A stretch of DNA of 64,000 nt from NCBI GenBank assembly GCA_001972305.1, contig BDDD01000560.1, positions 332,730 to 396,729 on the forward strand, written 5' to 3'. Both the position numbers and the translations under genes were made by a program. Source of the stretch: Cephalotus follicularis (taxonomy: Eukaryota; Streptophyta; Magnoliopsida; Oxalidales; Cephalotaceae). The notes beneath the pieces were generated by a model, which had not been told where the DNA came from, searched no databases, and worked only from the letters and a program-made list of their open reading frames with translations. Shown piece after piece: positions 11,190 through 62,151 of this stretch; position 1 is the first letter of the stretch, and every line of letters begins with the position of its first letter.

Positions 11190-11260
11190 CAGTCGGCTGC
11201 CCTCAAGAACCAGCCGGCTGTTGGGTATAGCAGTCGACTGCATTTGATGACAGTCGACTG
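11190..11260. repeat. 21-bp-phased palindrome array in element B, first block
   Basis: Four 10-bp near-palindromes, CAGTCGGCTG, CAGCCGGCTG, CAGTCGACTG and CAGTCGACTG, have cores at 11192, 11213, 11233 and 11253, giving spacings of 21, 20 and 20 bp. Confidence 0.85.
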
Positions 11261-12125
11261 GTTTTGCCCAGAAATGTAGGCAGACCAGTTTTATAATGCA
11301 ATTCAGTGTTCAAATCAATTAAGTGCAATGAAAAAATCAACATACATAACATGCATGAACATATCTTCCAATACATATCACTACCCCTACCTCAAATGCT
11401 ATCCCAAGATCAATTGGATGATCTTTCTCTTTGAAGCTTTCAAAGTCTCTTCCAAGCTTTTTACCAAATCAATTCTTTTCAATCACAGGAGGTTCAATCT
11501 ATGCATGTTATAGGTGCATGCATCAGTGGCAGATAAACATTCCAATCAGTAGCTTAAGTTATTATTTCATTAAGCTTTATGTCCCTCCATTTTACTACTT
11601 CTTATGCATGAACACTACCTCAATTCTTAATTTCTTAATGGACAGAAGATGAGTAGGTATATAAATAAGAATTTCAGTAGCTTATCATGGTATTAGTAAC
11701 AACCTCCTAACCAATTTAGAGATTGCATGTTCATATGCTTGAGCCAAAGTTACATTCCTTATCAATTCATCCTCTTAGGATGATAATCAATCGTTCATAC
11801 AGTAGATTAAGTGTCCTCCTAACCTCAATGTCAACTTACAACAACCCAGAAGTTAGGATTCAAACTTACCAGGAATGTCAAGGATCCCAAGTTCCCACTT
11901 TGAGCTTCAAGCTCCAAACTCTCCAATGAAAGATTTCAATCAAATTCTCCAGCAACTCTCTCAATATTTAGTGTTTCTAACACTCATAACATCCTCACAT
12001 ACGGATGATATAGGCCATGAATTCGCCAAAGATTATTAGCTCCACATTTCCTCCATTTCCTCTCACTCACATGCACATGTCTCATATGCTTTTCTTTCTT
12101 GATTCTTGTAAATTGCAGGTTATGC

Positions 12126-12170
12126 ACATGCAGGTGGAGCAGAGGACATGCAAGGCCTCTACCTGCATGT
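12126..12170. repeat. Strong hairpin in element B LTR
   Basis: ACATGCAGGT (12126-12135) pairs perfectly with ACCTGCATGT (12161-12170). Inside it AGAGG (12141-12145) pairs with CCTCT (12156-12160), with a one-sided bulge of five bases. That is 15 pairs in 45 bp. Confidence 0.8.
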
Positions 12171-12256
12171 ATTGGCAGCTTAGGACACCTGTCTCCCATG
12201 CAGGCCACGCCTAATATCAGATGACACCTGAACAGACACATGTTCTGTCGAAATTA

Positions 12257-12336
12257 CAGTCGACTGGATTCATTGGGCAGTCGACTGTCGTCAACACGTA
12301 GCAGGCAGTCGACTGTTCTCCTATGGCAGTCGACTG
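12257..12336. repeat. 21-bp-phased palindrome array in element B, second block
   Basis: Four exact CAGTCGACTG copies have GTCGAC cores at 12259, 12280, 12308 and 12329, with spacings of 21, 28 and 21 bp. Confidence 0.88.
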
Positions 12337-12528
12337 TCAAGAGCTAAATTAGGGTTTCTTGAGTGGGTTTCCACCAATTTGAATCCCAATTCATTTCAAT
12401 CATAAATAATCACAGAAGAACATAACAATTGGACATTAATTCAATTAAAATGTATATTTTATTTCAATAATCCGATCAATATACATCAAATTGAAATTGC
12501 GGTTATCACACCGCCTCCGAGAAGGTTA

Positions 12529-16641: not shown

Positions 16642-17266
16642 TGTACCCGAGTTGTATTGAATTGAGGTATTCCTATACCTATTGTTATTGTATTGATTAT
16701 ATGCATGTCTAGTTGGGATTTTGTGCTGAGTTTCAGAGAGTTGATCGAATTGGCTATATAAGTCAATTTCCCACTCTCATTCTCTCATTCTTTCATTCTT
16801 CTACCTCTCTCTATATCCTTCTCCCATTCTCTCTCTTGCTGGCAGCCTCCCTCCATCTCCCTAGCAGCCGAATTTGCATCTCCGTCAACAAGGATAGCAC
16901 TTGCAAGTTGTGGGTGCCGATTGAACAAGAAAGTAGCTGATTCTTGAGTGATTTCAGTCGATTGACCGATCGTTAGCTCAACTTTTGAAGCTTCGTTAAA
17001 GGTAGGACTTCCCTACTTGATTGCCTATTGCTTAATTGCATAATTGATTGAATGATTGATTGAATTGAGTGATTGTATTGCATTGAATTGAAAAACTAGG
17101 GTTTTTATTCATTTCCTTGATCTAACTGATCTATGAGGATTGAACTGAATTTTGAAGGTTATAACAAACTTTACTAACCTTAAATGATTGATTTTAACCC
17201 TTAGTTTTCAAAGAATGACTTTAAATTGGATTTTGACTTGAGATTGACCATTTTGTTTGCACAAAA

Positions 17267-17384
17267 ATCGACCATGCCTGGCAAAGACATCGACCCCAGC
17301 CCATGGACGTTGATGTCTTTCGCTTTAGAATGCTGTATCCTTGATTCCGCAGCAAAGATATCGATGTCTTTCAAAGACATCGAC
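17267..17384. repeat. GTCGAC-type array in T1
   Basis: Cores ATCGAC 17267, ATCGAC 17289, GTTGAT 17309, ATCGAT 17360 and ATCGAC 17379. Several have flanks AAAGACAT and GTCTTT, so the long palindrome is AAGACATCGACGTCTT-like. Spacings within groups are 22, 20 and 19 bp. Confidence 0.7.
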
Positions 17385-20300
17385 GTCTTTGCCTTGAGAT
17401 GTCTTCTCCCCAGGAAATACATTGGTTGATTGATTGATTGTTTGAGCCATAAGTATTGTGAGTCTAAGTTTGGAACGTTGGACGCATATTCCTATTTCTC
17501 CATTAGACATCACCACTTATTGGCATTGTACTGACAGATTGATTGTATTGTATGGATCCTATAGAGGGACATTATGATTCATGTCGGCATGTTAGGTTGT
17601 TGACTCTGTCCTCCTATTCTGTCGATCGTATCATTTATTGAATTGTATTGACCTGCTGACGAGCAGTATTGTATTGATTGACGATTGATGCTCCCTTGAG
17701 GACCGTAGCTCCCTAACGGTAACAGTAGCTCCCTCGATTGTAGCTCATTGATATTGTATTGACCCAGCCATAGGCTGGAAGATCTACGAGTTCCAGACCT
17801 GATCAGTATGAGAACAATAGATAGATCTCCCACCGTTTTTGAAGGACTACCTTCCATGGGATTGATCATTACTATTGATTGACATTGTACTAACTCGAGG
17901 TCGCATGCTCTATAGGATATGATTGCTTGATTGAGTGTTTGATACACCTCCATTTAGTGTCTATCATGGATTGATTGTTATAGATCCTATCCATATGCTC
18001 TGTTATGGGCAAGTGTCATACTGATTGTCTGATCGCCAATTGCACATGCATTTGCCATATCATGCATTTATATTTTACACTGCACATTTATATTGCATAG
18101 ACTGTCACTGATATTGCACGTTGTACATGCATACATGTTGCATGGGGTTTCTGCTTAGCCTTGTGGCTAACCCCATCCTTCGGTGTGGGGCTGCGTTGTA
18201 CTTTTTATGTGCGACATAGGTAGGGCAGCAGGTAGCAACGGACAGAAGGATTGAAGATTCAGTGCGATCGCGTGACCATTCGATGTAACTGAGCTTGGAT
18301 TGTAAATGTACCGACGAGTATTGTATTGAAATGTAATGTGTATTGAAATGAAATGACTGACATAGTATTGTAACTGAATAGTATTGTATGGAATCGCAGG
18401 GATGGAATATTGTATTGTATCTTCCGCACAATGACATGTTTTACAAAGTTTTTAGTTATTCGCATTTTTATATTGCTAGTCTCGACCATTGTATTGTATA
18501 TTGGATTGAGAGTAATGCCACCTGTCTGTCCTCCGGGCATGGGGTGTTACATGATTAATCTCACATATCATCTTGTTGAGACAATGGCAATACACGTGGA
18601 TGAATGAGTTCACTGAAGGTGACATGCTAAATGGAGTGCATGTATGAAATTTTTATTGTACGTCAAACAAACATTCTTAATAGCAGCAGTGCAATAGTGG
18701 TCCTTAGACATGAGTCATCACTGATATCTTGTGCATAGAATGTTGTGCTTTAATAGTGTTTACATATGTCTCCTAACTCCGGGGTGTATACAAACATTGA
18801 TTGGGTATGACAGGTTTATGGCAGAGATAGGTGAGTGCGGAAGAACGAATCCATCGTTCCAAGGAAAAGGGATATATGCTCAATTGATTAGTCATTGACC
18901 AAATTCTCTCGCCAGGGTAAGAACAGTGATATGTAGAAAGGGTTCTAATATCACTGGTTCATATTAAAGGAGCACTTCTAATATGATTGGACTAATGACA
19001 ATATATTATGGTACCTATTAATTAAACTATTAGGGTTTGACACTATCCATACCCTATGTTTGATTATAGCAATGACGATGGAAGGATTGTACATGCACGT
19101 AACTGCATTTAATGGTTCAAGGTAAATTCATGTTACTTGGGGATCATTATGCATTGCTAGATGTCGATGCTGATCAGTAGAATACATATATTCTTTTAAA
19201 TAGTAGACCATGGAAGAAAAAGGATAAAATGGATGATTTAATTCTAGATATCAATAAGTATTTTTTCATAGGACTGAAAAAAATTTTATTGGTCAATCGT
19301 AGAATAGTGACTTAATTCTATGGCCAGTGTAATAGTGAATTTATAGGGCCGCCCATAATACAACTGTCGATCTCCAAAACCGGGTGTAAAGAAAATAAAT
19401 TAGTGTAACACACTAATTAATTAAATCATGAGATGATTTAATTATGATTAGATATTTTTTTTGACTTAGTCAAATTGCTTAAAGGCTAAAAAAGGTTTGA
19501 TATTTTGATTCATTGCTATCTTCTCATTATTACTTACTAGCATAAGTAAGATAAAAATATATACCATCCTTTTTGAATAGTCTTGACCGAAAATCAAGAG
19601 AGAGAGATAAAAGAGTTCATCTTGCATCTTTTGGCTTGACTTTCTTAAGAAGAGAAGTGAAGAACATCTTGGAAATCACTTGGTGTGGATCACTTTCGGA
19701 GGCTAATCTTATCTTGGTGGCTTGACTTGAACCAATGAGCTTTTGAAGGAATGAGTGGATCCCTAAAGTGAGAGAAATTCCTCCATTAATGTTAATTTTG
19801 GCTTCCCAAGCATGTAATAACCTAGTTAAGCATGAATGGTCCTTGAGAATGGATTAGTTTTGTGAAGAATTTTTTTTTGTTTAAAACTGATTTTCAAAGT
19901 TAGGGTTTCTTGCAAAACAAATCGAACAAATGGTATCGGACCTTAATTCATGCTTATAGGTTGTTTAGGTGATTATATTTGCTTGAATTGATTGAGTTTT
20001 ATTGATGTTTGAGGTTTGAATTGGAAGCTGGGGTTACAAACAAATCATGACAAATTTATCTTTCTAAAGTTGTTTGAAAATGTTTTATAAGGCCATGGTT
20101 GTAAGGAGGAGGATGTGGTGATGAATTTCCTCTCTTGTACTTTAACCTAAAAACCACCACATCTCTTGCCCTAGCTATCTTATTATGTCGGCACTAATGG
20201 TATGGTAAGTGGTTTTGTGGTTGTTTTCATGAAAATTTGTTACCAAAAATGGAATGAGGAGGTGGAAATGAGAATTTTTCATGTTGGTCATTTTCACCTC

Positions 20301-22772: not shown

Positions 22773-22935
22773 TGTTGGAAGCGTGAAGGGCTGGCAAAGG
22801 ACGTTTTAGGCCATAGGTACTCATGGTGTCCAATTTTAATTTCACTATGAAAGATTGCTCTAAGCAGACGACACCATGGAATATCTATGTCTATAAACGT
22901 CCATGTCCACATGGGGAACCCTGATTGTCCGACCA
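22773..22935 (-). repeat. C2 3' LTR, terminal piece
   Basis: Starts TGTTGGAAGCGTG, as does the 5' LTR at 58286. It is interrupted by C1 after GACCA, which is duplicated on the other side of C1 at 34746-34750. Confidence 0.88.
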
Positions 22936-24997
22936 TGTTAGAGAGAGTGTGACTCGTCAAGCCACTAGGTGGCTAGATGTACTTGTACTCTGCTCATATT
23001 ATATACAGTCTTGTTCTATTCATGTTACATTGTGTAAATTGTATTTATTGGCATAACTGTATATGTTTTATCACATAATTGAAGCATGACACTGCTTACA
23101 TATATGGTGCCTGTCACATCAAATGGCTGGTTGTCAAGCCAAGGGCTATGAGAGCGACTTCCTTATTCCTTGTGACTAAACTGTTCCAAGTCATAGGTTC
23201 ACTTGCTTTGGGCATTTGTGAACCGAATAGACTTGTCGTATTGTGCTTGCTCTCGCGAATGGGAGGGTGGAGTATCTCATTGCCACTTGGGTTGAACCCT
23301 AAAGCTAATGCGGGGTGCGTGCTGGGAGCATGTACACTGAACTTGACCCACCATGGAAATTCTATTTGGATGGTCACATATCCTGTGTCAGTAGAGTTTC
23401 CCATCTGAGATAGTATTGTATAGACTCTGCGAGTCTAGCAAGTTCTGAATGGACTTGTCTGATCCTTAGACCTGAGTGACAACTGTACATTGCATAGAGA
23501 GTGTATGACTTTGAAATCTGCCTAACCAAGTTCTTTCGCGGGGCTGACAAACATGCAACGTTTGGGTCTTGCATGATTTATGTGAATGTAAGTGAGTGCG
23601 CAACAAGGAATTGTCACATCTGATGTGAGGGTGATTGGCTCTATAGTATCTGTATTCAATGTGGTCTTTGAAATACATGGCCAGGTTATGGCGAGTTGGA
23701 ACCTAGGGTTTCCGGAAATGCTTGTCGATAGTCATAATGGTAAAATACGGATTTATAGATACCGGCATATCTAGGGTTGACACGTATCCTTACCCTAGGC
23801 CGCGATCAGAGCCGAGGATGCTGAGGGATTATAGTACACGGTAACTATTGTTAGGATAAAGTATCGGATGTATCAGAAACAGACTTAATTGTGAAAATTA
23901 ATCAAGGGATTAATTTTACACACCTGGAATATGATAGTCATAGGTTCAGGGTCTTAAAAGTAGTCAATGACTATTTATGGTAAGTTTACTTAAGCGCAAG
24001 GCGTCTTAGTAACACACAATCATTACCGATTAATTCTGGACTTTCGGGTCCCGCCTCACGAGTATATGTATTAGATACATATATCGTATTGTTTTATAAC
24101 GTGTGATGGCACATGTTATATTGTGGCGTATTAGTGATGTTACGTGACTGATTAGTTGACGTAATATATTATTATGATTTTGGTATTAATTAATAATTAG
24201 ATTATTAATTCTCTTATCTCTTTTTGAGTAATAAATAACAATTGGATTATTATTTATCTCTCTCCTCATAGGCTACAGAATGGATATCAACGTATTGGTT
24301 GTTAGACAATCCATATGATAAGTGGCAGCTAAATAAAAATAACACGTTAATAACACATCATCTCTTATCCATTCCATATGTCATGATGACAAAACAGAAA
24401 AAGGATTTACATTCAAATGGAATGAAATCCTGATAACACGTTTGGTTGTTATTATCATCCTATTATTGGGGATCAAACTCTGGGGTTAAGTAAAGGGAAG
24501 TTAGAACGCGTTATGTGGAGAGTTGGTTTTGGGAACCTGCACACTTTTTACATAAAGAGAGAGAACTTATGGTTTTTGGTTCTTAGAGAACAAAAACAGA
24601 GAGAAGAGAAAATATACCAAAACACATCACAGTTTGATTTCTATTGGTGGTGTACTACTTTCATTGAGCATTACATTCCCTATATTGATCCTAGTTTAGG
24701 ATTAGAAATATAGGCTTTGGTTTGTTTGTTATTCCGCTGCTGTTCGTTCCTAAGTGAAAGATTGATGTCTCAGAACGGATACTTGAAGGAAGGAGTTGGT
24801 TGGTTGGTATAAACTCTATCCTTCTATGTATATATTGTTTATCTAGAGTGTTGATTAGCGATTCTAAGTTGTTTGTATTCATTTATGGTGTTAGATCATG
24901 GACGTTCTTTGTTTTGAGCCATTGTAAAGAAAGTTTAAGTTGAACAGTCCAAGCAACTAATGCCTAAAATGACTATAAACGAAGTTCTATTCTTTCA
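22936..24997 (+). repeat. C1 5' LTR
   Basis: Starts TGTTAGAGAGAG, ends TTCTTTCA, 2062 bp, matched along its length by the 3' LTR. No conserved protein is encoded. Confidence 0.93.
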
Positions 24998-24998
24998 A

Positions 24999-25010: not shown

Positions 25011-26799
25011 AGTACTAGTCAACCCAAGTTAAACTTTGTTTTTAGTTTTTGGTGACTTTTTTGGATTATTTTGGAACTCTGGTTGTGTCCTGAACTGTCT
25101 AACAGTCGATTGTTTCGCGTAAAGCATCGACTATTGGACATCAAAGCGTTGACGGTTTGGCATTTGTCTTGCGCTAACCGCTGGCGGTAACCTTAAGCGA
25201 TGACACTTAGCAATAGGTGTTGACGTTTAAGGTTGTAGGCAACGACTTAATAATTTATGCGATGGTGCTTTGTCTAAAGCGAAGTGGGTTACGCAAAGCA
25301 TCGACAGTGGCGTCAATGCTTAGCCAGTAAATGCCAACGGTTATGATAAAGTGTCGCCGCTATAGTCGGGACACATGCGCACGATGCTTCACTTGAAGCG
25401 CGGATCGTTATGCCAAAGCGTCCACGTTAGCTTCGACGCTTAGCCAGTAACCTCCGACGCTTAAGGCAGAGCCTCGCCGCTTTCAATGTGACAAGTACGC
25501 ATTTTTGAAATCTTGGTATGTAATACAAGTGGTACTGGATTTTCATTGATCTAGTGGGAGTTATGCCGAGAAATGCCATGTTTGATTTGATTAGCCATCG
25601 AAAATTAAAATTGTTAAGTTTTTATTCAATTTTATATTAGATATAATTTTGGATATGATATGCATGATGGTAACGCTATGGGACATGACCTAGATTTTTG
25701 TTTCTTTCGTGGATTTTTAATTTGCTTTATTATTTTATTGAGTTTGTAATTTGGTGGCCTACGAGCACCTTAATTTCTTATCTTTCGATTCCTCTATAGG
25801 ATAGATTCTTTTCTTTAAATTTAAATGTAAATTTTATTATAAAGCCTTGTAAACAAAAGTAGGAGAATTGATGGAGAGGAAGATCAAGAAAGTTGCAAGA
25901 CAAAGATGAAGGCCATAGATGCATGGTATTCTTTGTAATAAAGTAGAATTAAATAATTCACCTAGGAGACCCGGTGATCACATTGGCTCATGTGAATCAC
26001 TATAGAATTGTACCTAGCCTAACCATGCTTTATGTTGTACTTCGGATGCATGTGCTGGACAATTGGTCCAATTATGTCATTGCATGTAAGCCACAATTAA
26101 TTGGATTTGGCTAAGATAACCAATGAATTAATTAATGGATTGGCTTAGTTAAAATGTGAGACCTAAAATCCCTCCAAGGATGAAATAATAAGTCTTAACG
26201 CCAGAGATACTAAGAGTGACCTGACGTGGCCTTCCATAGTTCTCGTTGAGTGGCATTGACAGGTTGTGGGTGGTTAGCTAAAGCTAAGGTCTGCAATCTG
26301 TTTAGTGTCATGTCAACGTCAGTATTAGATACTGCAAGGAAACCACAATGTTTTGCACTTGGACACGTAAACTTGTGGGTGTCAAAACATGTGTATTATT
26401 TTTAGGATTGTGGGTATAGACTTATACCGACTCTAATGGTTTTTCATGCTAAAGCTGAGATCACATTGAGCTGGTAGGCCGAATCAATGATTGGATCTTA
26501 CACGAGCGTGTGGGATTAGATCCTGAGCTATGTAAATTGGCAGGTGAGCCTACCTATCTTGGGTGTTATGGTTTATCATGCTAAAGCTAAGGCCATGATA
26601 TGCCGAGGTAGATTCCAATCCCCACTAGGAGATTAAATCTCCCGAATTCCACATGGAGGTATGGGATACGATTAGAATAGTGGGAGGAACCATAAGCACT
26701 AAAGACCAAGTGTTATGGTTGTAACATGCAAAATGGAAAATGGAATATTTGCTAATAATCTCTATTGTTTCCTATAGGTTATATGTACTTTGCTAGAAA
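25011..26799 (+). other. C1 untranslated leader
   Basis: A long non-coding leader. Its left part (25105-25500) carries GTCGAC-type motifs: cores at 25105, 25126 and 25148 are 21 and 22 bp apart, and GACGCTT or TCGACGC words recur to 25480. The rest is AT-rich; CATGCTAAAGCT(A/G)AG with a GATCAC- or CATGA-like flank occurs at about 26450 and 26580. No conserved reading frame. Confidence 0.6.
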
Positions 26800-46246: not shown

Positions 46247-46316
46247 TGTAACAGGACCCGTTCCCGCTCTACTCTGGGCGACGTGCCCTACCGGGGATGG
46301 CGCTCTTGCCAAGAAC

Positions 46317-48316: not shown

Positions 48317-48790
48317 TACTGTCCTGTTACTGTACTGTTTACTATTTGATTCACTGATTGCTCTGTGAATTTACTGTGATTGTGTTTGAGCCGTACTAGT
48401 TGCGTGGCGGGACTTCCAGCGATGACTAGTGATAGGGTTGACCTCGGGGCCAGGAGTTGGCTGGGTAACTCACAGTACTGTACTGTTGCCTCGCTCGGTT
48501 GCCTGGAGTAGGGACCGGAGTGGGAGTGTAGCGTGGGGCCAGGAGTTGGCGGCGTTATATATACTGCGTGACTGTTGTGGTCCTTATGGACATACTGTAC
48601 TGCCCGTTGGTCCTTTTCGGACATTACTGTGACTGTGGATGTGATCCTGGCCGGATCACTACTATACTGTTCTTGCATACATATATTTATTATATATGTA
48701 CCCACTGTTATTTTCCTGTACTGCAAATGTATATATTTCTCATATATATATATAAACTGTTATTTTCCTGTACTGCATCATTATGCATAC
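48317..48790. repeat. Hairpin array with TACTG linkers in T3
   Basis: Stems GTCC/GGAC (48580-48591), GTCC/GGAC (48610-48622), GTGATCC/GGATCAC (48641-48659) and ACATATA/TATATGT (48679-48700) are separated by TACTGT words, which occur more than twelve times in the interval. Confidence 0.75.
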
Positions 48791-49254
48791 ATTACATGAC
48801 ATGCATCTAATGTTGATCCTGAGCTACTTCTATGACTAGACCGAGTGAGGACAAAGGCTAACCCCCTACTTTACAGATTGATGTAGTGGACCGGTTGGAC
48901 TGGCATGGACAAAGAACGAAGTTGTTATGTTGTTAGTTTTGTTCTCATGATTGTAATAAACTGTTTCGTTAAAGGATTTCCAATGTATTGTACTTATGGT
49001 GATGTTAATGATGGATTTAATATTGTACTATGATCACGCTCCGTTTGTGGGCGATTAACAATGATGGACTTATTTTGGGGTATCGTGTAGAATGGGATGC
49101 ACGCTACGAGTTTACAGCTTATGAATTTTTTTTATGGTTTCGCAACTGACATTTTATTTATGAGTTAAAATTTTATGGTTTTACATGAGCTGTATTTATG
49201 TGTTAATTGCCTTTACCGCTTTAATCTTGTCTTCTCGATAAATGGGGTATGACA

Positions 49255-49632
49255 CCTATCATCTCCAAATTGCCCGAGCAACCCACCAGATATGCTCCAG
49301 GGACACGTTACACAAAAGCTTGACGAGAAAGTCTAGGCTAAAAGCGCAACAGGCGCGAGAAAAGGGGCAGGGGACAAAAGGACCCGAGGACTCAAACTCC
49401 CCGTTTCATTAAGTCACCAACTGCCTACGTCCAAGAACTCCAAAACGCGCCGCATCACTTAAGATCCAAGGAGAGCAACCACGTGCTCCTCGCTTTGATC
49501 ACTTAAGCACCAAGGTCTGCTTACTTCCCGAGGACACACCCTGTCCATGATTCTTTTCTCCTGTGCTCTTCTCTAAAGAACACTTCTCAACACAACACTT
49601 AACCTTAACATCAAAACGTACAACTTAACTAA
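49255..49632. repeat. 378-bp direct repeat, right copy
   Basis: Second copy of the 46317-46693 segment. Here it continues into the rest of F (CTTAAAACACTG), so this copy sits in its original context on the right, as the other does on the left. Confidence 0.9.
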
Positions 49633-50858
49633 CTTAAAACACTGTAGCGCTAGAAACTAATATAATAATTTGCCGCATGAACTTCAAGTCGTCCTCGAAC
49701 CTCTACTCACTAATCTCCTCTGAGCTCATGTCCGAGGTCCCAACCTTGAGCCCTTACTTACTCATAAACCATCCGGGGACTCCCTGTCTCCCAGGGTAAA
49801 ACCTCATACACTTAACCATCAGCCCTTGCCATGCTCTACTATGCTATCCGAGGACACCCTAGCTCCTCGGACAAAACTGATAACATCAAACACATAACAA
49901 CCAAACATTCATCAAATAACAAGGCAAATCTAGTCGCGGACTAAAAACATCTATTTCTTTCTTGAAAGTACTATTACATAACATGTTGTCCTCTGACTAG
50001 AAGCATACACTACTTTCTCTGCTCAACAAAAGAAACAACATAAGCTTTCTTTCTATACATCAAAAGAATTAACATGAATCTCTTGTTTTATCATATCATG
50101 CTTACAAAACATAAGCTCTTGGCTACTCCACAACAAAAGAAGGTAGAGGAACCCAAAAGAATGCCCAATGCAATGCATGCTAGACGCTCAAGATAACGTC
50201 CCGAGGTACCGAACGCAAAAACAACCCTTGCTTAGCTTTCTACAAGAGATCTTTAGGATCTCCTCCTGCTGGCTGGTTTGCAAAATAATCTATGAGGGGA
50301 TTAGTAAACTGACTAAGTGACTGAGAATAAATCATCCTCTGATGCATTCCTTAAGAATGAATGCGCTGAAGAAAGCTTACCATGAACATGAGTAAATATC
50401 CCAACGGGGGAAGAAACTGTAACAAAAAAATGTCATGGCATACAATAAAGAAACGCTCGAATTACTTGAAAAACATATTCTTTTCTCTGCTTAGCTGATA
50501 GTAGAGTGCTCATGAAAACTGAAATAAGCTTAAGAATACAACTGTTAAAGAATGCTCTGGAAAAAGGTCCGACTTGGCTAAAATGCCGAGGAGGACTAGA
50601 TCTAAGCTCGGAACTTGCTTTTCTTTGATATGCTTTGCTTTGCTGTTTACATAATATAGTGCCAGCTTATAGTGGCCTGGGCTCAGCAAATCTTGGCTGA
50701 AGCCATAACTTGGCAGCTTACTTGCTGATGGTTCTCCTCTGTGCTTGCAATTCTTTCTTAACTGAGCTGAGTACTAAAAGTTCGAGGACAAAGGCCCTCA
50801 TCTAGAAAACTTACTGAAAGGCTCTATGCTCTCTATCTGATAACTTAGCTCTGATGTA

Positions 50859-51138
50859 CTCACCACTAAACACTGTCATAGAAAACAGTGTAAAGGAGAT
50901 CTAGGTATGGAACCTGGGGATAGTCTCGCCCATCTTCCCATCATAGACAATGAGAAAACCGAGGAGGTTGGAGCTGTGTACATACGCGCTCGGCTGCTCT
51001 CACCACTAAACACCATCATAGACAATAGTGTAAAGGAGATCCAGGTATTGAACCCGGGGGCAGACTCACTCAAAAACCCATCATAGACAATGAGTACGTT
51101 GAGGAGGGGGTTGAACACGTACTCGTTACCTCATCCGG
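50859..51138. repeat. 140-bp tandem duplication in F
   Basis: Two diverged units starting CTCACCACTAAACAC at 50859 and 50999. Each includes GTGTAAAGGAGAT and CCATCATAGACAATGAG. Confidence 0.85.
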
Positions 51139-51479
51139 GGATGAGTAATATATGGGAAAAGAATTGAGAATTTCTTCTCGGGAAAGCTCTCCACTCACAA
51201 AGAATGGCTTACATAGGACAGTAGGGAAAGAAATTTCCCGGCTAAAGCTAACTTGCTCTGGGCTGGAACACGGAGACAAGGATTCTCAAGAAAACAACAT
51301 GAACATGAAAATATATCTGTGTAAGAAAGGATGTCCTACTCACAGTTCTCTGCTATGTCCTTTGATGAGAACTTCTCTTTTTTCTCCTCGACTGACTGCT
51401 TCATCTTGCTGTGTTCAAAAGCGTCAAACTGCTACTGTTCTCACACTAGAGAAACGGGGAAGAAAGAGAAAGGAAACTA

Positions 51480-51482
<3 letters not shown>

Positions 51483-51525
<43 letters not shown>

Positions 51526-51533
51526 TCTCTCAC
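51483..51533 (+). repeat. CT microsatellite
   Basis: Nearly pure CT repeat of about 37 bases, followed by a shorter CT run after CACT. Confidence 0.95.
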
Positions 51534-51782
51534 TCCATCACATCTAATCTGCTGAAACAAAAACTCTACCAACACTCTAGAAAAGCATGTACGATTACTG
51601 AACACGCCACACGCTTTACACATCCATCATTGTCTTGGAACTTGGAATCTTCTCTTGGAAGCTTTGCACTTGGATCCACAACTTCTTATTAATTATCCTT
51701 AGGTACTTGGACCCCTTTTAACTTAAGCTCTTTTTAAATCATCAAAACTTTATTTATCTTAAAAAAAAATACGGGCGTTACA

Positions 51783-52680
51783 ACATGTGGCAACTCCTTG
51801 AGTTCCACCTGACTCCCACAGTTTCGTTCAAGAAGGTATCCATTCTCTAGGAATACAGCATTACGCAAAACAAATATCCTTTGTTCGCTAGGATGGTAGA
51901 AGTAGTATCCTTTAGTTTCATTTGGATACCCCATAAACCTGCAACCATGCATCCAGCTTATCTGCGTCAAGCCTCTTGACATAAGCCGGACAGTCCCAAA
52001 CCTTCAAGTGGTTTAGGCTGGGTTTCCTCCCTGACCATACCTGGTATGGAGTGGAGGGCTCATATTTTGAAGGAATCTGATTCAAGATATAGGCTACTGT
52101 TTCTAAGGCATATCCCCAGAGATAGGTACGAAGGTCAACAAAAGACATCATAGATCGAACCATGTTCAACAAGGTCTGATTCCTCCTTTCGGACACACCA
52201 TTATGCTGTGGTGTTCCAGGAGGTGTCCACGGAGATAGAATTCTGTTATCTCTAAGATAACCTAGGAATTCAGCTGACAGGTACTCGCCACCTCGGTCTG
52301 ACCGAAGTATTTCTATTGACTTACCAGTCTGCTTTTCTAGTTCAAATATGAACTCCTTAAATTTCTTAAAGGATTCTGATTTGTATCTCATCAGATACAC
52401 ATAACCAAACATAGATAAATCATCAGTAAAGGTTATGATGTAGATATAACCTCCTCGTGCACTAACCGACATCGGACCACATACGTCGGTATGGACTAAT
52501 CCCAGTAAGTCCATTTCCCTTTCTCCTTGACCAGAGAAGGGGAATTTAGTCATCTTTCCCAATAAGCAGGATTCACATGTTGGATAGGACTCCAAATCCT
52601 GGATATCTAAAAGATCATCCTTAGCCAATTGTGAAAGTCTAGCATAACTAAGATGTCCAAGTCTATAGTGCCAAGTATAG
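51783..52680 (-). pseudogene. C3 integrase
   Basis: From about 52680 down: LSYARLSQLAKDDLLD and YPTCESCLLGKMTKFPF (zinc module), the core HTDVCGPMSV, FTDDLSMFGYVYL, LRSDRGGEYLSAEF and QHNGVSERRNQTLL, then VWDCPAYVKRLDADK. A one-base shift near 51950 moves to the frame 51982-51734 with GYPNETKGYYFY. The linker ELKELPHV then meets insertion F at 51782. All three core acidic residues are present. Confidence 0.92.
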
Positions 52681-53928: not shown

Positions 53929-55650
53929 TTTATAGCAACCTAGATAAGGAAATATAAAGTTGAGTCAACATCTATTCCAGTTTTAATATATGACAACCAT
54001 AACACTTGGTCTTTAGTGTTTATGGTTCCTCCTACTATTCTAATCGTATCCAATAGCCCCATATGGAATTCGAGAAGTCCAACTTCCTAGTGGGGATTGT
54101 AATCCATCGCAATCATATTATGGCCTCAGCTAGGGCATGACAAACCATAATATATCCAATGGGTAGGCTATCTTGCCAATTTGTATCCAATACAAGATCG
54201 AATCATAAAATTCGGCCTTAGATTCAATATGGCCTCAGCTAGGGCATGACAAGCCCTTAGAATCATGATAAGTCAAACACCCACAATTTTCATTGGAATG
54301 CACTAGTTTTAACACCCACACGTAGGCGTGTCCAAGTGCTAAAACATAGCCACCCTTTGCGGTGCCCAACACCGACGTTGACATAGTATCCCACAGGTTA
54401 CCAGCCTCAGCTATGGCATAACAAACTAATAACCCAGGTACACCACTCAACAAAAATTGTGGAAGACCACGGGGAATCACTCAATGGGTTCCTACGTTCA
54501 TACTTATTATTTAATTGAGGGAATTTGCAGTCTCAAATTTAAATTACCAAGCCTTTAATTAATTCATTGGTTTCATTACCCAATTCCAATTAATTACGGC
54601 TTAGCATACATGACGAGATTCTTATGCACATTGGATTTATTTATAAAATAAATCATTGGAATGGCAAGGACATCACTATATGTAATCACTTGAGCCCAAA
54701 GTCACTACTCGGTCTTCTTAGGTGCTATGATTAAATCTATTTATTACATTTATAACCATGCATACATGGCCTTCAAAGGTCTTGTACTTCTTTTCTCCTT
54801 TTCTCCATTTCGCCTTTTGTAAAATCTTCTTTTACAATGCAACATTAAATTTTTAAAAGAAAATTACATAAGAGAGAAAAACAATGATACACGCAAGCAC
54901 AAAGTTACAGATCAATAAATAATAGATAAAATCATTCACACAAGAAAAACCATAATCTAGGTCTTGTCCTTATAGGCCATCCATTGTGCATAAGACAAAT
55001 AGAGTATATCCAATATAACTTTAAACAATATACAAAAAGCCTTTTATAATAAGAAATGATAAAATTTAATATAAGGATTGTTTATAGGTCAAACTCCCAC
55101 TAAATCAAGCAATGATTATTATTTTCTAAGTGCCTTAATGCAAAAATTCCAATTTTTTTTATAAAACAGTTTTTTTTAATTTCAAAGCGTCGACGCTATA
55201 ACAAAGGCATCGACGCTTAACGTCCAACGTATAAAACATGATGATCATTTGAGCGTCAACGCCTAACAAAGATGTCAACACAAATCATGACAGTCAGGTA
55301 AGCGTCGACACTTCAACCAAAAAACGTCGACGCTTAAACCATCTGCATAATTACTCCAAGACCCAAAACTGTAGTTTTCAATGGTTTGGACTTTGGCATT
55401 CCATTTTGGCAATCCAAACTGCACTATGCAGGTTCTAAACATAAGTCCAAAAAAAATGTAACACAATCCCCAGGACAATATCACAATTTAGTTTCTGAAT
55501 TTAATCTAATATCCATTCAAAAACTTCAAATATCATGTAAGCACTTAGGCACTTTTAAAATGAGTTTAACCATATAAATAGTACCAATTATTAAACTTTT
55601 AATCAATTATTATTCCAGGCATCTAAATTCAAATATGAATGATGCGGTTG
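53929..55650 (-). other. C3 untranslated leader
   Basis: Non-coding leader from primer site to gag. It holds a GTCGAC-type array at 55187-55332 and a repeated GGCCTCAGCTAGGGCATGAC word (near 54122 and 54230). Short frames show no domain. Confidence 0.65.
55187..55332. repeat. GTCGAC-type array in the C3 leader
   Basis: Cores GTCGAC 55189, ATCGAC 55209, GTCAAC 55255, GTCAAC 55274, GTCGAC 55304, GTCGAC 55326, forming pairs at 20, 19 and 22 bp with AAGC/GCTT flanks. Confidence 0.8.
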
Positions 55651-55662
55651 TCTCTGATACCA
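55651..55662 (-). promoter_or_regulatory. C3 primer-binding site
   Basis: On the minus strand TGGTATCAGAGA follows the 5' LTR, matching the initiator tRNA-Met primer of copia elements. Confidence 0.9.
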
Positions 55663-55663
55663 C

Positions 55664-57872
55664 TGACGGAAAAGGTAAAACATTCCCTCAATGTGAACCG
55701 GGCCAAAGGGTGGTTAGAAGTGATAACAAAACTTTTTGTCAATGGCAGCGGAAATTAAAACAACTCTAATCACCAGAAACACAGGTCCAATTCAGGGAAT
55801 ACACAGGCTAAGGAATACCACATCATTACATAAATAAAATGGCATCATAAGAACAACAAATGTGATGCACAAACAAGGCAACATAAAGAAGAACATGGAG
55901 ACATACAAACGGTGATGGCTCTTTCGTTCTTTGCTGCTACTAGCTTGAGTAGATTCCCTTTGAAACTTCAAGTTCCTCTAAGTCACCAAGCTTCAAAATA
56001 CTAGCAGCTACTGACCCAAAAACCAGCAACTCCAACCCAACAAGGAATAAAAATAGTCACTATTTTTCTCTCTCTCACAATGCTTACAAAGAGAAGATTG
56101 AAATTGACAAGTGTTGTCAGTAACAATCCACCCTAGGTTAGCTTCAAAATGGTGAAGAAATCTCAGAAGGGAATTACAGTGAGTTCTGTCAAAATGTTCC
56201 ACACCAACTACAGGTTCCAAACCTGTTTTTATCTCAGCCTCGTTTCTTTCTCTCTTTCTCAATTTCCACTACACCACTCATGCACATTTTCTGGATCATG
56301 GTGCTCACTCTAAGGAAGCATGTATCCATGATCCAAAAACGTGCTCCCACCATGCACTGATAGGAGAAAAACGTTGTGAGTGGGAGAGAGAATCATGCGC
56401 GCATTACGCGCCCGCAGCAAGCACCCATGTTGCTGTTCTAAGCATCGACACTTTTCCAAAAGCGCCGACGCTTAGACGGGCTAGGCATCGACGTCTTTCC
56501 ACAAGACATCGACGCATAAACGTGGCTAAGCATCGATGCTTTTCCACAAGGCATCGACGCTTTTGAGGCTGGTCAAGTGAATTGAATCTAACTCTTATTT
56601 AAATGGGTCCAACTCATTTTAGAGACTCCACATATCCCTTCGAATATTGATTAAGTAAGATCAAGGAAATATGTTTCCACAAATTCCAAAATCCACCTAA
56701 CCGATATTTGATTTTATAAAATTTCACCAAGACTTTATATGTCCAACATATTTATGAACTAATCATTATCGGGCAGGGACCCTATAAAATCTCGGTTAGA
56801 ATCAGTGGTGTTCATAAATTACCGAAGCCATTCTAAATATTTCTAGACCTATTTAAATGCTTCTGGACTAATATCCAATATTATCCATATGAAAAATTAA
56901 TCTTATTGATTTCTCATAATTTATTACACACCAACGTAACACAAGACTTTCTAAGTTGTCAGTTCGCGTGTACTATAATCCCTCGTCATACTTGGTCCGG
57001 ATTAAGGTCTAGGGTAAGGATAAGTGTCAACCCTAGATAATACCTCAATGGCGAAAATATCTGATCATTACTAGGACCTTTGGTAAACTCTCTGGAAATC
57101 TAATTTCCAGTCCACCTCAACCTTGGCCAAGGATTTCATAAGTCCATAGTATAATCTGACCATAATAGGGCGATCACTTTCTCTTAGGTGTGACAATCCC
57201 ATATTGTGCACTCGCTTATATTCGTATAAATTCGATCGTACCCAAAGACCACCCGATTGCCAGCCCTACACAAGAACTGGGTGAGGTGGAGATCAAAGTA
57301 TAACTGTCTCCATACAATATAGAGCAGTCGCTCAGGTCTAAGGTTCAGACGAGTTCGAAAGACTCGCTAAGTGATTATCACTTATACACAACCGTAACAA
57401 GTCGGAGTCACTACTGACACTAGAATAGAAACTATCCAAATAGTGTCTCCTACACGGGTCCAGTTTAGTGTACACGCTCCCAGCGTGCACCCCGTATTTG
57501 CCCTAGTTTCCCAACACAGATGGTAGTGAGAGAATCCATCCTCCAATTTGAAAAGCAGGCAACATATGCGCAAGTGTATCTGGTTCACTAATGCCCACAA
57601 AGTGAACCTATGACTTGGAACTAATTTGACATAAGGAATAAGGTAGCCAATCTCAGTGCCTCCATGCTTGGCATGCAACCTTATGTTAGGGCATCACAGG
57701 TGTAAGTAGGAAAAAAACTACTTCAATTATGTGTTAAAACACAAGTGATATTACCATAAATAATATAAAAAAAGTAGCACGTGTCATATATTAGGAATAA
57801 GATTATTTATATACATCGATAGATACAATATGAAAGCTCATCCATTGGCTTGTCGGGTCATCCTATCTAACA
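55664..57872 (-). repeat. C3 5' LTR
   Basis: 2209 bp, TGACGGAAAAGG to CTATCTAACA on the plus strand, then the GTCAG duplication. It holds a six-site array (cores 56444, 56464, 56487, 56508, 56532, 56553) with the same spacings as the 3' LTR. Confidence 0.93.
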
Positions 57873-57877
57873 GTCAG

Positions 57878-58270: not shown

Positions 58271-58283
58271 GGATCTGATACCA
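58271..58283 (-). promoter_or_regulatory. C2 primer-binding site
   Basis: On the minus strand TGGTATCAGATCC lies two bases after the C2 5' LTR, the initiator tRNA-Met type primer site. Confidence 0.9.
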
Positions 58284-58285
58284 CT

Positions 58286-58410
58286 TGTTGGAAGCGTGAA
58301 GGGGTGGCAAAGGACGTTTTAGGGCATAGGTGCTCATGGTGTGCCATTTTAATTTCACTATGAAAGATTGCTCTGAGTAGAGGACACCATGGAATATCTA
58401 TGTCCATAAA
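58286..58410 (-). repeat. C2 5' LTR, terminal piece
   Basis: First 125 bp of the C2 5' LTR on the plus strand, starting TGTTGGAAGCGTG and homologous to 22773-22897. It is interrupted at 58410 by the SIRE-like element; homology at 22773 continues past this point, which confirms an insertion. Confidence 0.9.
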
Positions 58411-59007
58411 TGAAGAGTCCACAAAAGCAACCAAGAGGGGGGTGAATTGGTTATGTGGAAAAATAACCACCCTTTTTTGAAATATTAACCAATGCAAACA
58501 ACTAATAAACAAAGATACTCTTAACAAATATAAACAACAAAATAACTTGCAAATAATTAAAAGAGTAAGGGATAAAAAGTTGTAAACAAGTTTTATAGTG
58601 GTTCGGCAAACCGTGCCTACCTCCACTCTCCCAAGCCGCATTTGAGGTTCCACTAGAATGTAATCCCTCCGATCATAAACAATAACTCTGGATTTTTACA
58701 AGTTCAATCCTAACTTGGACTTTTGTGAGTTCAATCCCAACTCGGATTTTTGGAAGCTAAATCTAACTTGAGTAAGGTACTAATGACCTTGGGTTACAAA
58801 AGATTTCTGAATGTTTTAAGTGTTTAAAACCTCTCAAAAGGTTAGATAATAGAAAACAATGTAGCTCAAAATCTCAAAAAATAAGAATTTTAACAAACTA
58901 TAACTTTTTCTTACTCTTTGTATTGCTTGGATATTGCTTGCTTATGCTTGATTGATATCTTCATGGATTAAACCTCTATTTATAGCCTTCAGTTCATTGT
59001 AGCAGTT
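58411..59007 (-). repeat. SIRE-like 3' LTR, terminal piece
   Basis: Starts TGAAGAGTCC on the plus strand and has the AAGAGGGGGGTGAATTGG block (58433-58450) often seen in plant SIRE-type LTRs. T4 begins at 59008. Confidence 0.78.
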
Positions 59008-59837
59008 TGTCACGCCTGGGATTTTCATTAAATGTAATGTTGTATTTCCCGATGTAATCTATGCATTGGATTAATGAGAATTATGGATTTTCCCACTTTG
59101 TGATGTTAAAGACTTGAGCAAAAGTTAAAGAAACATTGTGGGAAGTGTGCCAACAGGGCGGGCAGCCAACTGTCAGAGAAAGAAAGTTGATTGGAACCCC
59201 TTAAGTGGAACCAGCCGACTGCTGGGAGAAACAGCCGGTTGGAACTGTCGGCAGGGACAGCCGACTGCCAAGGAACAAAGTCGACTGCCATTGGCCGGAC
59301 AACATTACATGCGTGCCAGGCTTGTCATGGGAGAGAGAGGAGTGATTGATGGGAAATGTCAGCAGAAAGAGAGAGAAAAAGGCGAACTCGTTTTTCCCAT
59401 AAAACACACACATTCTCCTCCTCTTTCCATCATCATTGCATAAAGAGGGAAGAAATAGAGAGTTTGTAAGGAAGAAGGAGAGAAGAGAGGGAGAAGTTGA
59501 GCCCAAATGCTCCAGACTTGAACCGGGACACTTGGAGACTCAAACCAGTGGGAGAACCAGACCTATTGGAGCCATTGGACGAACTTGGGAGCTTTGAACG
59601 CCTCAGATATGGGACTTAAAGTGGTGGATTTCAATTCCTAACTTGAAATTCAAAGGTAGGGGGTTTTATAATTGTGATTTAAGTTCCGTTATAATGGATG
59701 TTCATGGATGAAATGCATGCAATATACTGTGAATATGAGCATGAAATGTGTTATTGTTGATGAATGCTCTATTGTGTTTGGATTGGGCTGAGAATTGCAT
59801 GTATTTTCTGCTGTTTTTCGTGCAATGATCGTAGGAG

Positions 59838-59952
59838 CAACCGACTGTCCCAGGAGGACAACCGACTGTTTGAGGGTACCAGCTAACTATTCAGTGCGAA
59901 TAGCCGAGTGCTCGAGGGAAACAGTTGACTGTGCTAAGGAGCCAGTCGACTT
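59838..59952. repeat. Exact 21-bp palindrome array in T4
   Basis: Six 10-bp units start at 59838, 59859, 59880, 59901, 59922 and 59943: CAACCGACTG twice, CAGCTAACTA, TAGCCGAGTG, CAGTTGACTG, CAGTCGACTT. All five spacings are exactly 21 bp. The 11-bp spacers differ from one another. Confidence 0.93.
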
Positions 59953-60164
59953 TTCATGTGTTTTAATAGAGGATCACCTCCTGCTGGTTGTGTAGTCGAC
60001 TGCCGGGTGAAGGCAGTAGACTGTAGATGGGGCAAACGACTGTAGATGGCACAGTCGACTATTTGGGATGACAATCGATTATCCACGTGTCGCCTTACCC
60101 CGATTCGCTGAGGTGGCGAAGCTACGGTGAGTAGCGATGTAGAAGACGCGTACTGTTCATGAAG

Positions 60165-60300
60165 CAGCCGACTATCAAAAGAGTCAGCCGACTGTTAAGG
60201 GAGGCAGCCAACTGCCAAACACGGGACAACCGACTGTCAAGAGGAGACAGTCGACTGTTGAAAGGAAATAGCCAACTGCCAAGGTGGAGATAGCCGACTG
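60165..60300. repeat. Seven-unit palindrome array in T4
   Basis: Units with cores at 60167, 60187, 60207, 60229, 60250, 60271 and 60293, mostly CAGCCGACTG or CAGCCAACTG. Spacings 20, 20, 22, 21, 21, 22. Confidence 0.92.
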
Positions 60301-61447
60301 GTAGGGACTGACCTGGACTTTGAGCATATGTTTTGCATTGCATTTCGATATGAAATGAATTGATGATTGAAATATGGATGATTCTAAATTGTTTTATTCA
60401 TTTTAGAAATGTGTACATGATTTTATACAAATAACTATTTGATACGAAAATGTATATTTTGATAAATGTAGGTTTTCAACGGATTAAAACATGGTTTCAA
60501 AGATGCAATAAATTTTAAAATAAATGTATTATTTCCAGTATTTTATAAATTACTTGGAAACGATTATATTTGAATTGATTTGTTGATTGTGATTGATGCC
60601 GTACTGGCTGGGGTGACGGAGTGTCGCTGATGGTTGGTGGCAGGATGTTCTCCTAGGGGCCAGGAGATGGCTAGGGACGCTCAAATACAATGTTACTAAA
60701 CACTGAGTGAAAGTAAAACGGGTTACCATGATTGCTGAACAAAGAGTGCGAGCATCATGAGTTTGATTTGTTGCCTTGCTTCGTGACCCGGGAGTCGGGG
60801 GCCGGAGTAAGAGTATGACGTCGGGTCCAGGAGATGGCGGTGCTCTTTGTACAGATTTTATTTGATTTGGTTTGTCCTTTGAGACATGATTGATGATTTG
60901 ATGGCTGTAGCCACTTGGCATTGTTGCACATATTGGCATAGATACATATATGTATATATGTACTGTGATATATTATGTATTGCATCACGAATGCATTCAT
61001 TACATGACATTCATTATCATTGACCCTGAATCACACTTATATTTTAGCCGAGTGAGGACAAAGGCTAACCCCATACTATTACAGATTGATGCAGTGATAT
61101 GGATATCGACCATGTGTGGCCGAATCAGAGGGGAGATGGAGTTTTATTTGCTTGATTAAATGTTAAAACAATGTATTAAAACATGTTTTATTTTTGGATT
61201 ACCGTATTAATGATGTTGATTGGCTTTGAACACGCTCCGTTTGGGGGCAGTTGACAATGGCTAATAATATTAAATTTGGAATCATGTGGTATGGGATGCA
61301 TGGTTCGGTTCACTTTCAGCTTATTATTAAATGCTTCCGCAAGATGTTAATGGAATCGAAGTTTTAAATTCATCGTATTTTATGTATAAGTTGGATTTAT
61401 GTTGATTTCCATGACTTATATGTTGTTAATGAAGCGGGGTGTGACAC

Positions 61448-62151
61448 CGGTTCTAGAGTTCAGGAACCGATCAAAGAGCCGTTGGAGCTATTCAGGGAAA
61501 GAATCACCATTTCAGCACCTTCAAAATTTGCAGATTCTGTGTTTAGCTGTCATTGGCATTGACTTGTATGCATGGCGTTGACGTCTATCCCCTTATGTGT
61601 TCACTCTTGTAGCTTTCTGCGTTATCACTCCAAGCTTTTCTTCAGCTTCACTTCGATTCACGTTGACGTTCATATATGGTATTGACGCGTATATCATTTG
61701 AGTTGACTCCAAAATATCTCTGCATTAACGTCCAAACCTACTATCCGAAATGTGCACCATTAACGTTGACGTCCAATTGTGGCGTTGACGTCTTCAGACA
61801 AGGTGTTGACGGCACTTGTTTTCTTCATTAACATCTAAGCCATTTATGTTGAAATCTTCCTCAAGGCGTTGACGTAAATCATAATTTCCCAGCACGTTGA
61901 CGCAGATAGTATATGACGTTGACGAGAATCTTCTCGTAAACCCAGATACGGTACTTAAACCTAGAACGTTGACGCCTAGAACATAAGCGTTGACGCCAAA
62001 GGTACTGATATGTATTTCTAAGCTTTCTTACATTGTAAGTTATCTTCCTTACAGTGCAAGTTAACTTTGTTAGCTAAGTCCTTCACATCAAACACACATA
62101 TTAGGTATTTTGTAATCATCAAAACAAAGATTGTAACATATAATGTCAACA
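61448..62151 (-). repeat. SIRE-like 3' LTR, main piece
   Basis: Continuation of the LTR to AATGTCAACA at 62151. CGTTGACG words are dense at 61560-61995 (for example cores 61558/61577 and 61662/61681, each 19 bp apart). The minus-strand LTR start is TGTTGACATT. Confidence 0.8.

Follow-up and report, generated by a model that had tools for sequence, protein, structure and literature searches.

Why should long terminal repeat (LTR) retrotransposons of separate groups carry the same kind of short palindrome, repeated at the same short distance? The question is raised by a 64,000-nucleotide stretch of the Cephalotus follicularis genome (GenBank assembly GCA_001972305.1, contig BDDD01000560.1, positions 332,730–396,729 of the forward strand), referred to here as the window, which has a GC content of 41% and consists mostly of nested plant LTR retrotransposons. 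A sequence-only reading of this DNA had proposed that GTCGAC-centred motifs phased at roughly 21 bp recur in three retrotransposon groups with family-specific flanks. We find GTCGAC-type sites at every position listed there (none was listed for the segment T1), and the phasing is real. At least three groups, namely Ty3/gypsy LTRs, copia elements with a classic polypurine tract (PPT) and a Sirevirus, carry the same kind of system, and homologous LTRs can carry different palindromes. All array results come from this one 64-kb window of one genome.

Palindrome pairs at 20–22 bp in non-coding retrotransposon DNA

The hexamer GTCGAC occurs 23 times in the window, compared with a mean of 6.0 in ten shuffles. 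An unbiased test considered all CG-centred 10-mers with at least four of five complementary pairs and used 20 dinucleotide shuffles as reference; 15 pairs of these near-palindromes lie 20–22 bp apart, versus 0.5 ± 0.67 after shuffling (maximum 2). AT-centred (10 versus 3.9, maximum 9) and TA-centred (7 versus 2.95, maximum 6) near-palindromes slightly exceed their shuffles, and GC-centred ones show no excess at this spacing in the window (0 versus 1.0). With a looser core, defined as any hexamer within one mismatch of GTCGAC, and 100 shuffles, 26 core pairs at 20–22 bp fall in the LTR, leader and solo-LTR-like portions, 24.9 kb in total, against 0.43 in shuffled sequence, and the remaining 39.1 kb contains one against 0.72 expected. 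The peak is sharp, with at most one pair at each of the spacings 10, 11, 31 and 32 bp. GTCGAC ranks first among the 64 palindromic hexamers (one mismatch allowed) by the ratio of 20–22-bp to other spacings (27 versus 4.7); GTTAAC (14 versus 4.9) and ACGCGT (10 versus 3.3) are also raised, probably in part through the same sites.

The pairs are confined to non-coding element DNA. When 51.2 of the 64 kb was divided into 23 blocks, core pairs fell in 10 of 14 non-coding element blocks (more safely 9, T1 being counted on pairs other than its own palindromes) and in none of the nine coding or other blocks. Four blocks had no phased core pair in this test, namely the two LTRs of copia C1, a fragment of a C2 LTR and the stretch of the Sirevirus LTR that lies downstream. 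The uncovered 12.8 kb holds a single core pair, at 16601 in unassigned DNA, which is the sole exception to the confinement. The arrays were partly in view when the borders of the LTR, leader and T blocks were set; this affects the block and LTR-versus-rest counts but touches neither the CG-centred 10-mer test nor the hexamer ranking.

A symmetric profile search recovered 80 sites resembling the 14-bp palindrome AAGCGTCGACGCTT (AAGC..GCTT type), 53 of which have a neighbour at 19–23 bp and form eight arrays, and 49 sites resembling the 10-bp palindrome CAGTCGACTG (CAG..CTG type), of which 29 have such a neighbour and form four arrays; the 47 sites lacking a neighbour at this distance are left out of the array counts. 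A third palindrome, the 18-bp AAAGACATCGATGTCTTT, occurs in T1 as one pair at 20 bp and another at 19 bp. These three palindromes have dyad symmetry and the CGTTGACG type of the Sirevirus array is imperfect; the core is TCGA or YCGR, with no CGG-CCG core. Adjacent phased sites (49 cases, the second C3 LTR copy dropped) are separated by 21 bp in 24 cases, 20 bp in 15, 22 bp in 4, 19 bp in 4 and 23 bp in 2, a distribution conditional on the 19–23-bp filter, unlike the 10-mer and core-pair tests. Fifteen of the 27 phased runs are just pairs, and no 10.5-bp phase was detected between runs (R = 0.25, p about 0.38, n = 15). Because spacing is nearly constant, at about 20–21 bp for the 10-bp palindromes of elements B and T4 and the 14-bp palindromes of C1, C3, T2 and T3, and 19–20 bp for the 18-bp palindrome of T1, phasing on the helix fits better than a fixed loop.

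The arrays are dense assemblies of short motifs, with 21 phased sites in T4, 11 in the C1 leader, 11 in T2, 10 in T3, six in the C3 LTR plus four in its leader, eight in B and five in the Sirevirus LTR, all counted in incomplete elements. Within 11 arrays, motif identity is 0.59–1.00 and that of the adjacent 5 nt is 0.20–0.47, the first figure being inflated by the motif-based choice of sites. No conserved outer flanks of the pairs were found beyond a loose T/A beside the 14-mer.

Palindrome type and element descent

Three homologous LTR sequences bear on how palindromes relate to ancestry. Element B (7840–12510, minus strand) is bounded by TGTGATAAC...GGGGTGTGACA on the minus strand and a 5-bp target duplication, CCGCC, and encloses a degraded RNaseH-integrase region (Pfam RT_RNaseH and Integrase_H2C2 at 9062–10183); its 3' part is homologous to T4 and T3. 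T3 (46694–49254, plus strand) is solo-LTR-like, ends in GGGGTATGACA and lacks the initial TGTC. T4 (59008–61446, plus strand, 2439 bp) is likewise solo-LTR-like, a TG...CA unit (TGTCACGCC...GGGGTGTGACA) set within the Sirevirus LTR, with no clear target duplication at its borders. The Ty3/gypsy pol, TG...CA ends and 5-bp duplication are present in B, and T3 and T4 are placed in the family by LTR homology alone (T3/T4, E 2e-37 over 533 bp; B/T4, E 7e-14 over 231 bp; B/T3, E 5e-7). All three finish in GGGGTRTGACA and have in common a block around GTGAGGACAANGGCTAACCCC.

In all three, two arrays stand at positions that correspond when measured from the 5' end. In B they lie at 12257–12336 (four exact CAGTCGACTG sites, spacings 21, 28 and 21 bp) and 11190–11260 (four CAGYCGRCTG sites, spacings 21, 20 and 20 bp), corresponding to distances of 175–254 and 1251–1321. 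The T4 arrays, at distances of 156–280 and 831–1293, comprise four phased CAGYCGACTG sites from 59212 and an unphased one at 59163 (59163–59287), and 17 phased sites of the same type with a longest run of seven (59838–60300). In T3, at distances of 189–292 and 1064–1259, there are four AAGCGTCGACGCTT-like sites (46882–46985) and six phased sites (47757–47952). Thus, B and T4 have the CAGTCGACTG palindrome, and T3 has AAGCGTCGACGCTT, as do C1 and C3; T2 is of the same AAGC..GCTT type. Because the homologous B/T4 and T3 carry different palindromes, and that of T3 is the copia one, motif type does not follow element descent. On the sequence evidence, this independence is the strongest new point of the analysis.

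The B protein fragment (open reading frame (ORF) 9062–10183) is 88–90% identical to two C. follicularis proteins, and the other 118 of the 120 relatives listed, from 8000 candidates scored, are 44–68% identical. A chromodomain (PF00385), which in integrase marks the chromovirus lineage of Ty3/gypsy, occurs in two of the 120 listed relatives (P0017 and P0111); the B fragment stops short of that part. T3 is flanked by a 378-bp direct repeat (97% identical; 46317–46693 and 49255–49632), far beyond a normal target duplication, and the whole T3-containing block, about 46225–51787, interrupts copia C3. ORFs of the left gypsy-type region of the window match Transposase_28 (putative gypsy type transposon) at 418–1371 and, weakly and below the cut-off (E 4e-4), zf-C4H2 at 2102–2947.

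Copia C1 (22936–34744, plus strand) has LTRs at 22936–24997 and 32679–34744, a primer-binding site (PBS) at 25000, and the PPT AGTGGGAG followed by AT/TG at 32669. Copia C3 (42219–57875, minus strand) has LTRs at 42219–44457 and 55661–57875 that are 91% identical, a PBS at 55652 and the PPT AGTGGGAGATTG at 44453; nine of ten matches to its gag were named Cephalotus. Since both elements have the AGTGGGAG-AT/TG polypurine tract and neither has AGGGGGAG, they are classic-PPT copia elements and not Sireviruses, by the marks given in the text of PMC2829016. The C1 leader contains 11 phased AAGCGTCGACGCTT-like sites at 25122–25482, with two core pairs versus 0.01 in shuffles; the sequence-only reading had seen the sites at 25105–25153, but the array continues well past them. 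In C3, six sites in the 3' LTR (43002–43124; spacings 20, 23, 21, 24 and 21 bp) are matched by the LTR-pair copy of six sites at 56440–56562, the C3 cluster lying at 1314–1456 from the LTR start, and the leader (55185–55335) adds four phased sites as two pairs, at 20 and 22 bp. Adjoining the C1 5' LTR, positions 22773–22897 hold a Sirevirus LTR end fragment (93% identical to 58286–58410), a remnant of another nested element.

The right-hand element is a Sirevirus, because three AGGGGGAG tracts (62251, 62357 and 62391) stand upstream of an LTR running from about 62151 to 58285. This LTR (58285–62151, minus strand) is split by T4 and has a PBS at 58273 and a TATA box near 58985. Its array (61556–61998) has five phased CGTTGACG-type sites, from 61761, plus further GTTGAC/ATTGAC sites seen by eye. 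It had been described as GTCGAC-type; the phased sites are indeed there, but all five are GTTGAC-centred. With distances reckoned from 62148 as the start, the array lies about 150–600 bp into the LTR with the TATA box downstream, and 61447–62148 contains three core pairs versus 0.02 expected. Internal-type signals stand on both sides of the LTR (PBS at 58273, PPTs from 62251, within 58273–62391), as in a tandem element with one common LTR.

T2 (27319–29500, ends approximate and placed by eye) is an unclassified insertion in the C1 gag, and its array (27598–27934) comprises 11 phased AAGCNNCRACGCTT sites in runs of 3, 4, 2 and 2. Near its left end, just upstream of the array, 27424–27510 is by eye markedly G/C-rich (GGGGGGTTCGGGGG...CAGCGCCCCCGG). 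T1 (16900–18551, plus strand) is an LTR-like segment that ends in GGGGTGTTACA and weakly resembles the 3' ends of B, T3 and T4; its left end was not found, and 16900 is arbitrary. It belongs to the system only weakly, through an imperfect and a better AAAGACATCGATGTCTTT-type pair (17283–17392; 20 and 19 bp apart), and its two core pairs in the block count come from other sites or from combinations of sites. T1 is also rich, by eye, in degenerate short units resembling ATTGATTGA and GTATTGTATTGA (17040–17090 and elsewhere in 16900–18500). The flanks thus differ between groups, as had been claimed, with an AAGC..GCTT, a CAG..CTG and a T1 type, but the type does not track descent.

A cis-regulatory reading and its competitors

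On the best-supported reading, to which we give about even chances, the arrays would serve LTR retrotransposons as clusters of cis-regulatory sites bound by proteins. A sequence-specific factor, encoded by the host or by an element, would occupy each near-palindrome (a GTCGAC or ATCGAT centre with its particular flanks) as a dimer. Two dimers about 21 bp apart, at a distance of two helical turns and on one side of the helix, would cooperate in binding and together make up the working unit, in many cases a single pair. Where several such units occur in the LTR or in the leader that directly follows it, they could increase transcription and help against silencing. Unrelated elements would converge on one factor family or exchange sites for it, and flanks would change when an element switches to another member of that family. 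A bolder extension, which we hold to be rather doubtful, is a common code across superfamilies: pairs of TCGA-centred palindromes two turns apart would be read by fast-diversifying dimeric proteins preferring different outer bases, elements would switch reader by rewriting flanks, non-autonomous or unrelated ones would hijack a reader by evolving its site, and motif type would track the reader and not ancestry.

The sequence itself shows the motifs, their spacing, their confinement to non-coding element DNA in the window, their presence in three groups and the change of motif between homologous LTRs; binding, dimers, cooperation, activation and the factor's identity are inferred. In favour of the reading are the sharp spacing peak, the confinement, a spacing that hardly varies with palindrome length, motifs more alike than the nucleotides beside them, the corresponding array positions in B, T3 and T4, and the place of the Sirevirus array before the TATA box. 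CpG content adds to this in part of the arrays. The observed/expected ratio is 1.31–1.92 in the AAGC..GCTT arrays (C3 LTR, C1 leader, T2 and T3), against 0.65–0.80 in the C1 and C3 LTRs, T2 and T3 taken in full; in C3 it is 1.8 for the array and 0.67 for the LTR. Several observations weigh against binding sites of this kind. The main T4 array has a CpG ratio of only 0.85, and CpG columns of the C3 LTR pair changed in 10 of 36 cases in the array and 39 of 124 elsewhere. On the plus strand, left halves deviate more from the consensus than right halves (119 versus 67 deviations at 82 phased sites, both C3 LTR copies included), and the halves show no compensation beyond column composition (AAGC..GCTT, 217 of 329 versus 216.4 expected; CAG..CTG, 113 of 145 versus 112.0). 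Local duplication is indicated by neighbouring sites, which are more alike than expected from column composition (p 0.023 and 0.018), and both C1 LTRs and the C2 LTR fragment have no pairs. Lasting protection of the array from CpG decay was not found in the one LTR pair tested, that of C3, in which decay equals that of the rest of the LTR; non-CpG columns of this pair changed less, in 2 of 87 cases in the array versus 113 of 1964 elsewhere. Because its CpGs decayed as fast as those elsewhere in the LTR, the inserted C3 array was presumably methylated long-term, and its high CpG content would stem from the active lineage. The absence of compensation does not support a strict dyad reading, and since the halves are unequal and the Sirevirus array is all GTTGAC, the sites may be read with a direction.

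Several rival explanations were weighed. Capture by all elements of one mobile array-bearing insert, which we rate as extremely improbable, has in its favour a 45-bp stretch of T2 and T3 that is 76% alike (E 7e-4) and spans two sites, their spacer and a few bases around. The flanks speak against it: in 15 AAGC-type array pairs and the B/T4 pair, 5-nt flank agreement is 0.20–0.34, about chance, versus motif agreement of 0.52–0.81, the palindromes differ, and arrays lie in the leader as well as in the LTR. Because the flanks are at chance identity, a single captured insert is unlikely, and convergence or exchange of very short stretches remains; with T3, T4 and B homologous yet carrying two palindromes, one of them that of copia, convergence or exchange, which had been suggested from the start, is the best fit. 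Functionless growth of a 21-bp or pair unit by slippage in fast-evolving LTRs is quite improbable in our judgement. The internal repeats of T4, T3, the C1 leader and T2 do include spacers, and the excess likeness of neighbours points the same way. However, spacers have diverged and palindromes are kept (a contrast inflated by choosing sites by motif), the same core and spacing recur in unrelated elements, and the columns that persist include the CpG-rich ones, which methylation should make the quickest to decay; by contrast, the two longest bacterial CAGTCGACTG arrays found in a contig search described below (L002 and L009) have near-identical spacers. The main structural rival is the pairing of neighbouring palindromes into RNA or single-stranded DNA hairpins, with a role in packaging, dimerisation or small-RNA production, as has been suggested of the LTR palindromes in maize Sireviruses; it appears unlikely as an account of the arrays. 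Among 14 stretches folded and scored against shuffles, folding is strong in the C3 LTR (z −5.25 and −5.86), one C3 leader pair (−5.06), B (−5.23 and −5.78) and T1 (−6.86), moderate in one T3 stretch (−2.56) and T4 (−2.54 and −2.07), but little or no better than shuffles in the Sirevirus LTR (+0.29), the C1 leader (−0.89), T2 (−1.24 and −1.55) and the other T3 stretch (−1.50). In maize Sireviruses, palindrome clusters are described as small-RNA hotspots in the passages of PMC5311732 and PMC10760457 that treat them. Against hairpins, neighbouring sites show no compensation (AAGC inner, 128 of 203 versus 128.4 expected, outer, 134 versus 134.4; CAG, 77 of 100 versus 77.8 and 74 versus 75.7), and nearly constant spacing with 10-, 14- and 18-bp palindromes would leave loops of about 11, 7 and 1–2 nt. 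The weakly folding stretches and the lack of covariation weaken hairpins as a general explanation.

Two further proposals keep a protein reader and specify it. In the VANC-like proposal, a retrotransposon protein would bind the arrays and demethylate both its own element and others, and elements that are non-autonomous or unrelated would borrow its site and so gain derepression; we regard this as decidedly unlikely. According to the text of PMC5735166, VANC21 targets are dense, short, in one orientation, non-coding and growing by tandem repeats, and VANC6 motifs also occur in the unrelated AT9TSD1; the text of PMC10398659 places RNA-directed DNA methylation on non-coding VANDAL parts. The motif change between T3 and T4/B resembles target switching. 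On the other side, the C3 array and the remainder of its LTR show equal CpG decay, and a Pfam search of ten window ORFs returned only retroelement domains and the single weak zf-C4H2, which is below the cut-off and outside the array elements; this is weak counter-evidence, the array elements being mostly truncated and no other reader search having been made. A CBF/DREB-type AP2 factor as the reader is very improbable. Many sites hold (G/A)(T/C)CGAC, which resembles the core of the dehydration-responsive element/C-repeat (DRE/CRT) in a consensus wider than GCCGAC. AP2 domains bind as monomers, and monomer binding would account for neither the pairing nor the outer flanks. T or C fills position 6 in 44 of 52 14-mer sites and position 4 in 31 of 32 10-mer sites, and CGAC comes next in most of them, although the plus-strand profile reinforces its own direction. 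The text of PMC5209670 gives GCCGAC as the DRE core and states, with data not shown there, that Arabidopsis CBF3 recruitment was not detected at two GTCGAC elements.

Relation to known repeated motifs of plant transposons

The closest published relatives are the palindromic repeated motifs (RMs) that Bousios et al. (2010) described in 13 Sireviruses, in the upper half of the LTR and before the envelope gene (PMC2829016). As set out in the main text of that report, RMs are Sirevirus-specific and absent from classic copia elements, with no common binding factor identified; they are dyad-symmetric palindromes with at least eight copies per element and a CGG-CCG core, and their clusters start 200–400 bp from the LTR start, upstream of the TATA box. 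Sireviruses are marked there by several AGGGGGAG PPTs and an AT/TG attachment site. Two of the 13 motifs listed are TCGA-centred, the Vitis motif CGGTCGACCG, which contains GTCGAC, and ACAATCGATTGT of Tnd-1. Because a GTCGAC-centred motif is among those published, this precedent is closer than the VANC targets and cuts part of the novelty. The arrays here are likewise element-specific multi-copy palindromes in CpG-rich stretches with very divergent flanks, and the one at 61.5–62.0 kb occupies about the published place in a Sirevirus LTR (PMC2829016). They differ in occurring also in classic-PPT copia elements, in LTR and leader, and in Ty3/gypsy LTRs, which add a second cluster near 830–1320, and in having a TCGA core without CGG-CCG, for which Tnd-1 is the published exception (PMC2829016). 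Only the element at 58285–62151 and beyond is a Sirevirus carrier; C1, C3 and B are not. The Sirevirus array lacks the CGG-CCG core but is likely a new member of the RM kind. Searched by terms, the main text of PMC2829016 yielded no spacing rule for RMs.

Other known systems resemble the arrays in part. The VANC21 and VANC6 motifs of VANDAL DNA transposons in Arabidopsis (YAGTATTAY and AGTTGTMC) also form dense short-motif arrays in non-coding DNA, differ between related elements and occur in an unrelated one; as described in PMC5735166, they are non-palindromic, in one orientation, and read by a known element-encoded protein, unlike the near-palindromic sites of LTR retrotransposons here. The text of PMC2829016 mentions activator boxes of plant LTR retrotransposons, among them Tnt1 box I; these are short repeated promoter boxes that are sometimes symmetric and thought to bind host factors, but these are two or three tandem copies in one element, neither helically paired nor common to gypsy and copia. 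In the part of PMC6911290 concerned, insertion of LTR retrotransposons shows only a slight preference for palindromes. Among the matches listed in the open-licence literature, none dealt with a 21-bp rule or with gypsy LTRs that bear arrays of GTCGAC palindromes.

The palindrome clusters that maize Sireviruses carry in their LTRs were reportedly the subject of Bousios et al. in 2016. The clusters, CACCGGACNNNGTCCGGTG, are small-RNA hotspots; they resemble the present arrays as hairpin-capable palindromes within the regulatory part of the LTR, and differ in being longer and of CCGG type (PMC5311732 and PMC10760457, in the passages on these clusters).

Searches of viral contigs with the exact motif patterns gave no match, and two reverse transcriptase queries there gave two and four pattern-matching stretches, none a relative. 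Patterns made from two of the published Sirevirus RMs matched 6 and 23 stretches there, on which no conclusion is based. A pattern search of genome contigs, with spacings limited to 19–22 bp, gave nine bacterial stretches. By eye, L001, L003, L004 and L007 are hairpins with a T run after them; L002, and likewise L006, L008 and L009 from one metagenome-assembled genome (MAG), are repeats in tandem or dispersed; and L005 is neither; we take all nine to be unrelated to the plant arrays. Tandem CAGTCGACTG arrays with near-identical spacers occur in Pengzhenrongella frigida (L002:2950–3047, 22 bp) and in a Myxococcales MAG (L009:4535–4607, 21 bp).

The occurrence of the arrays in classic-PPT copia elements and gypsy LTRs, and their two-turn pairing, appear to be new as far as the open-licence papers listed show. 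Palindromic LTR motifs have been reported as a Sirevirus speciality, and a closely similar architecture is found here in gypsy LTRs, in copia leaders and LTRs, and in a Sirevirus. The homologous LTRs with swapped palindromes constitute a natural experiment, which asks whether each palindrome has its own member of a protein family and whether elements with the same palindrome are activated together. It would make the way in which plant retrotransposons choose and change their activators or anti-silencing factors directly testable.

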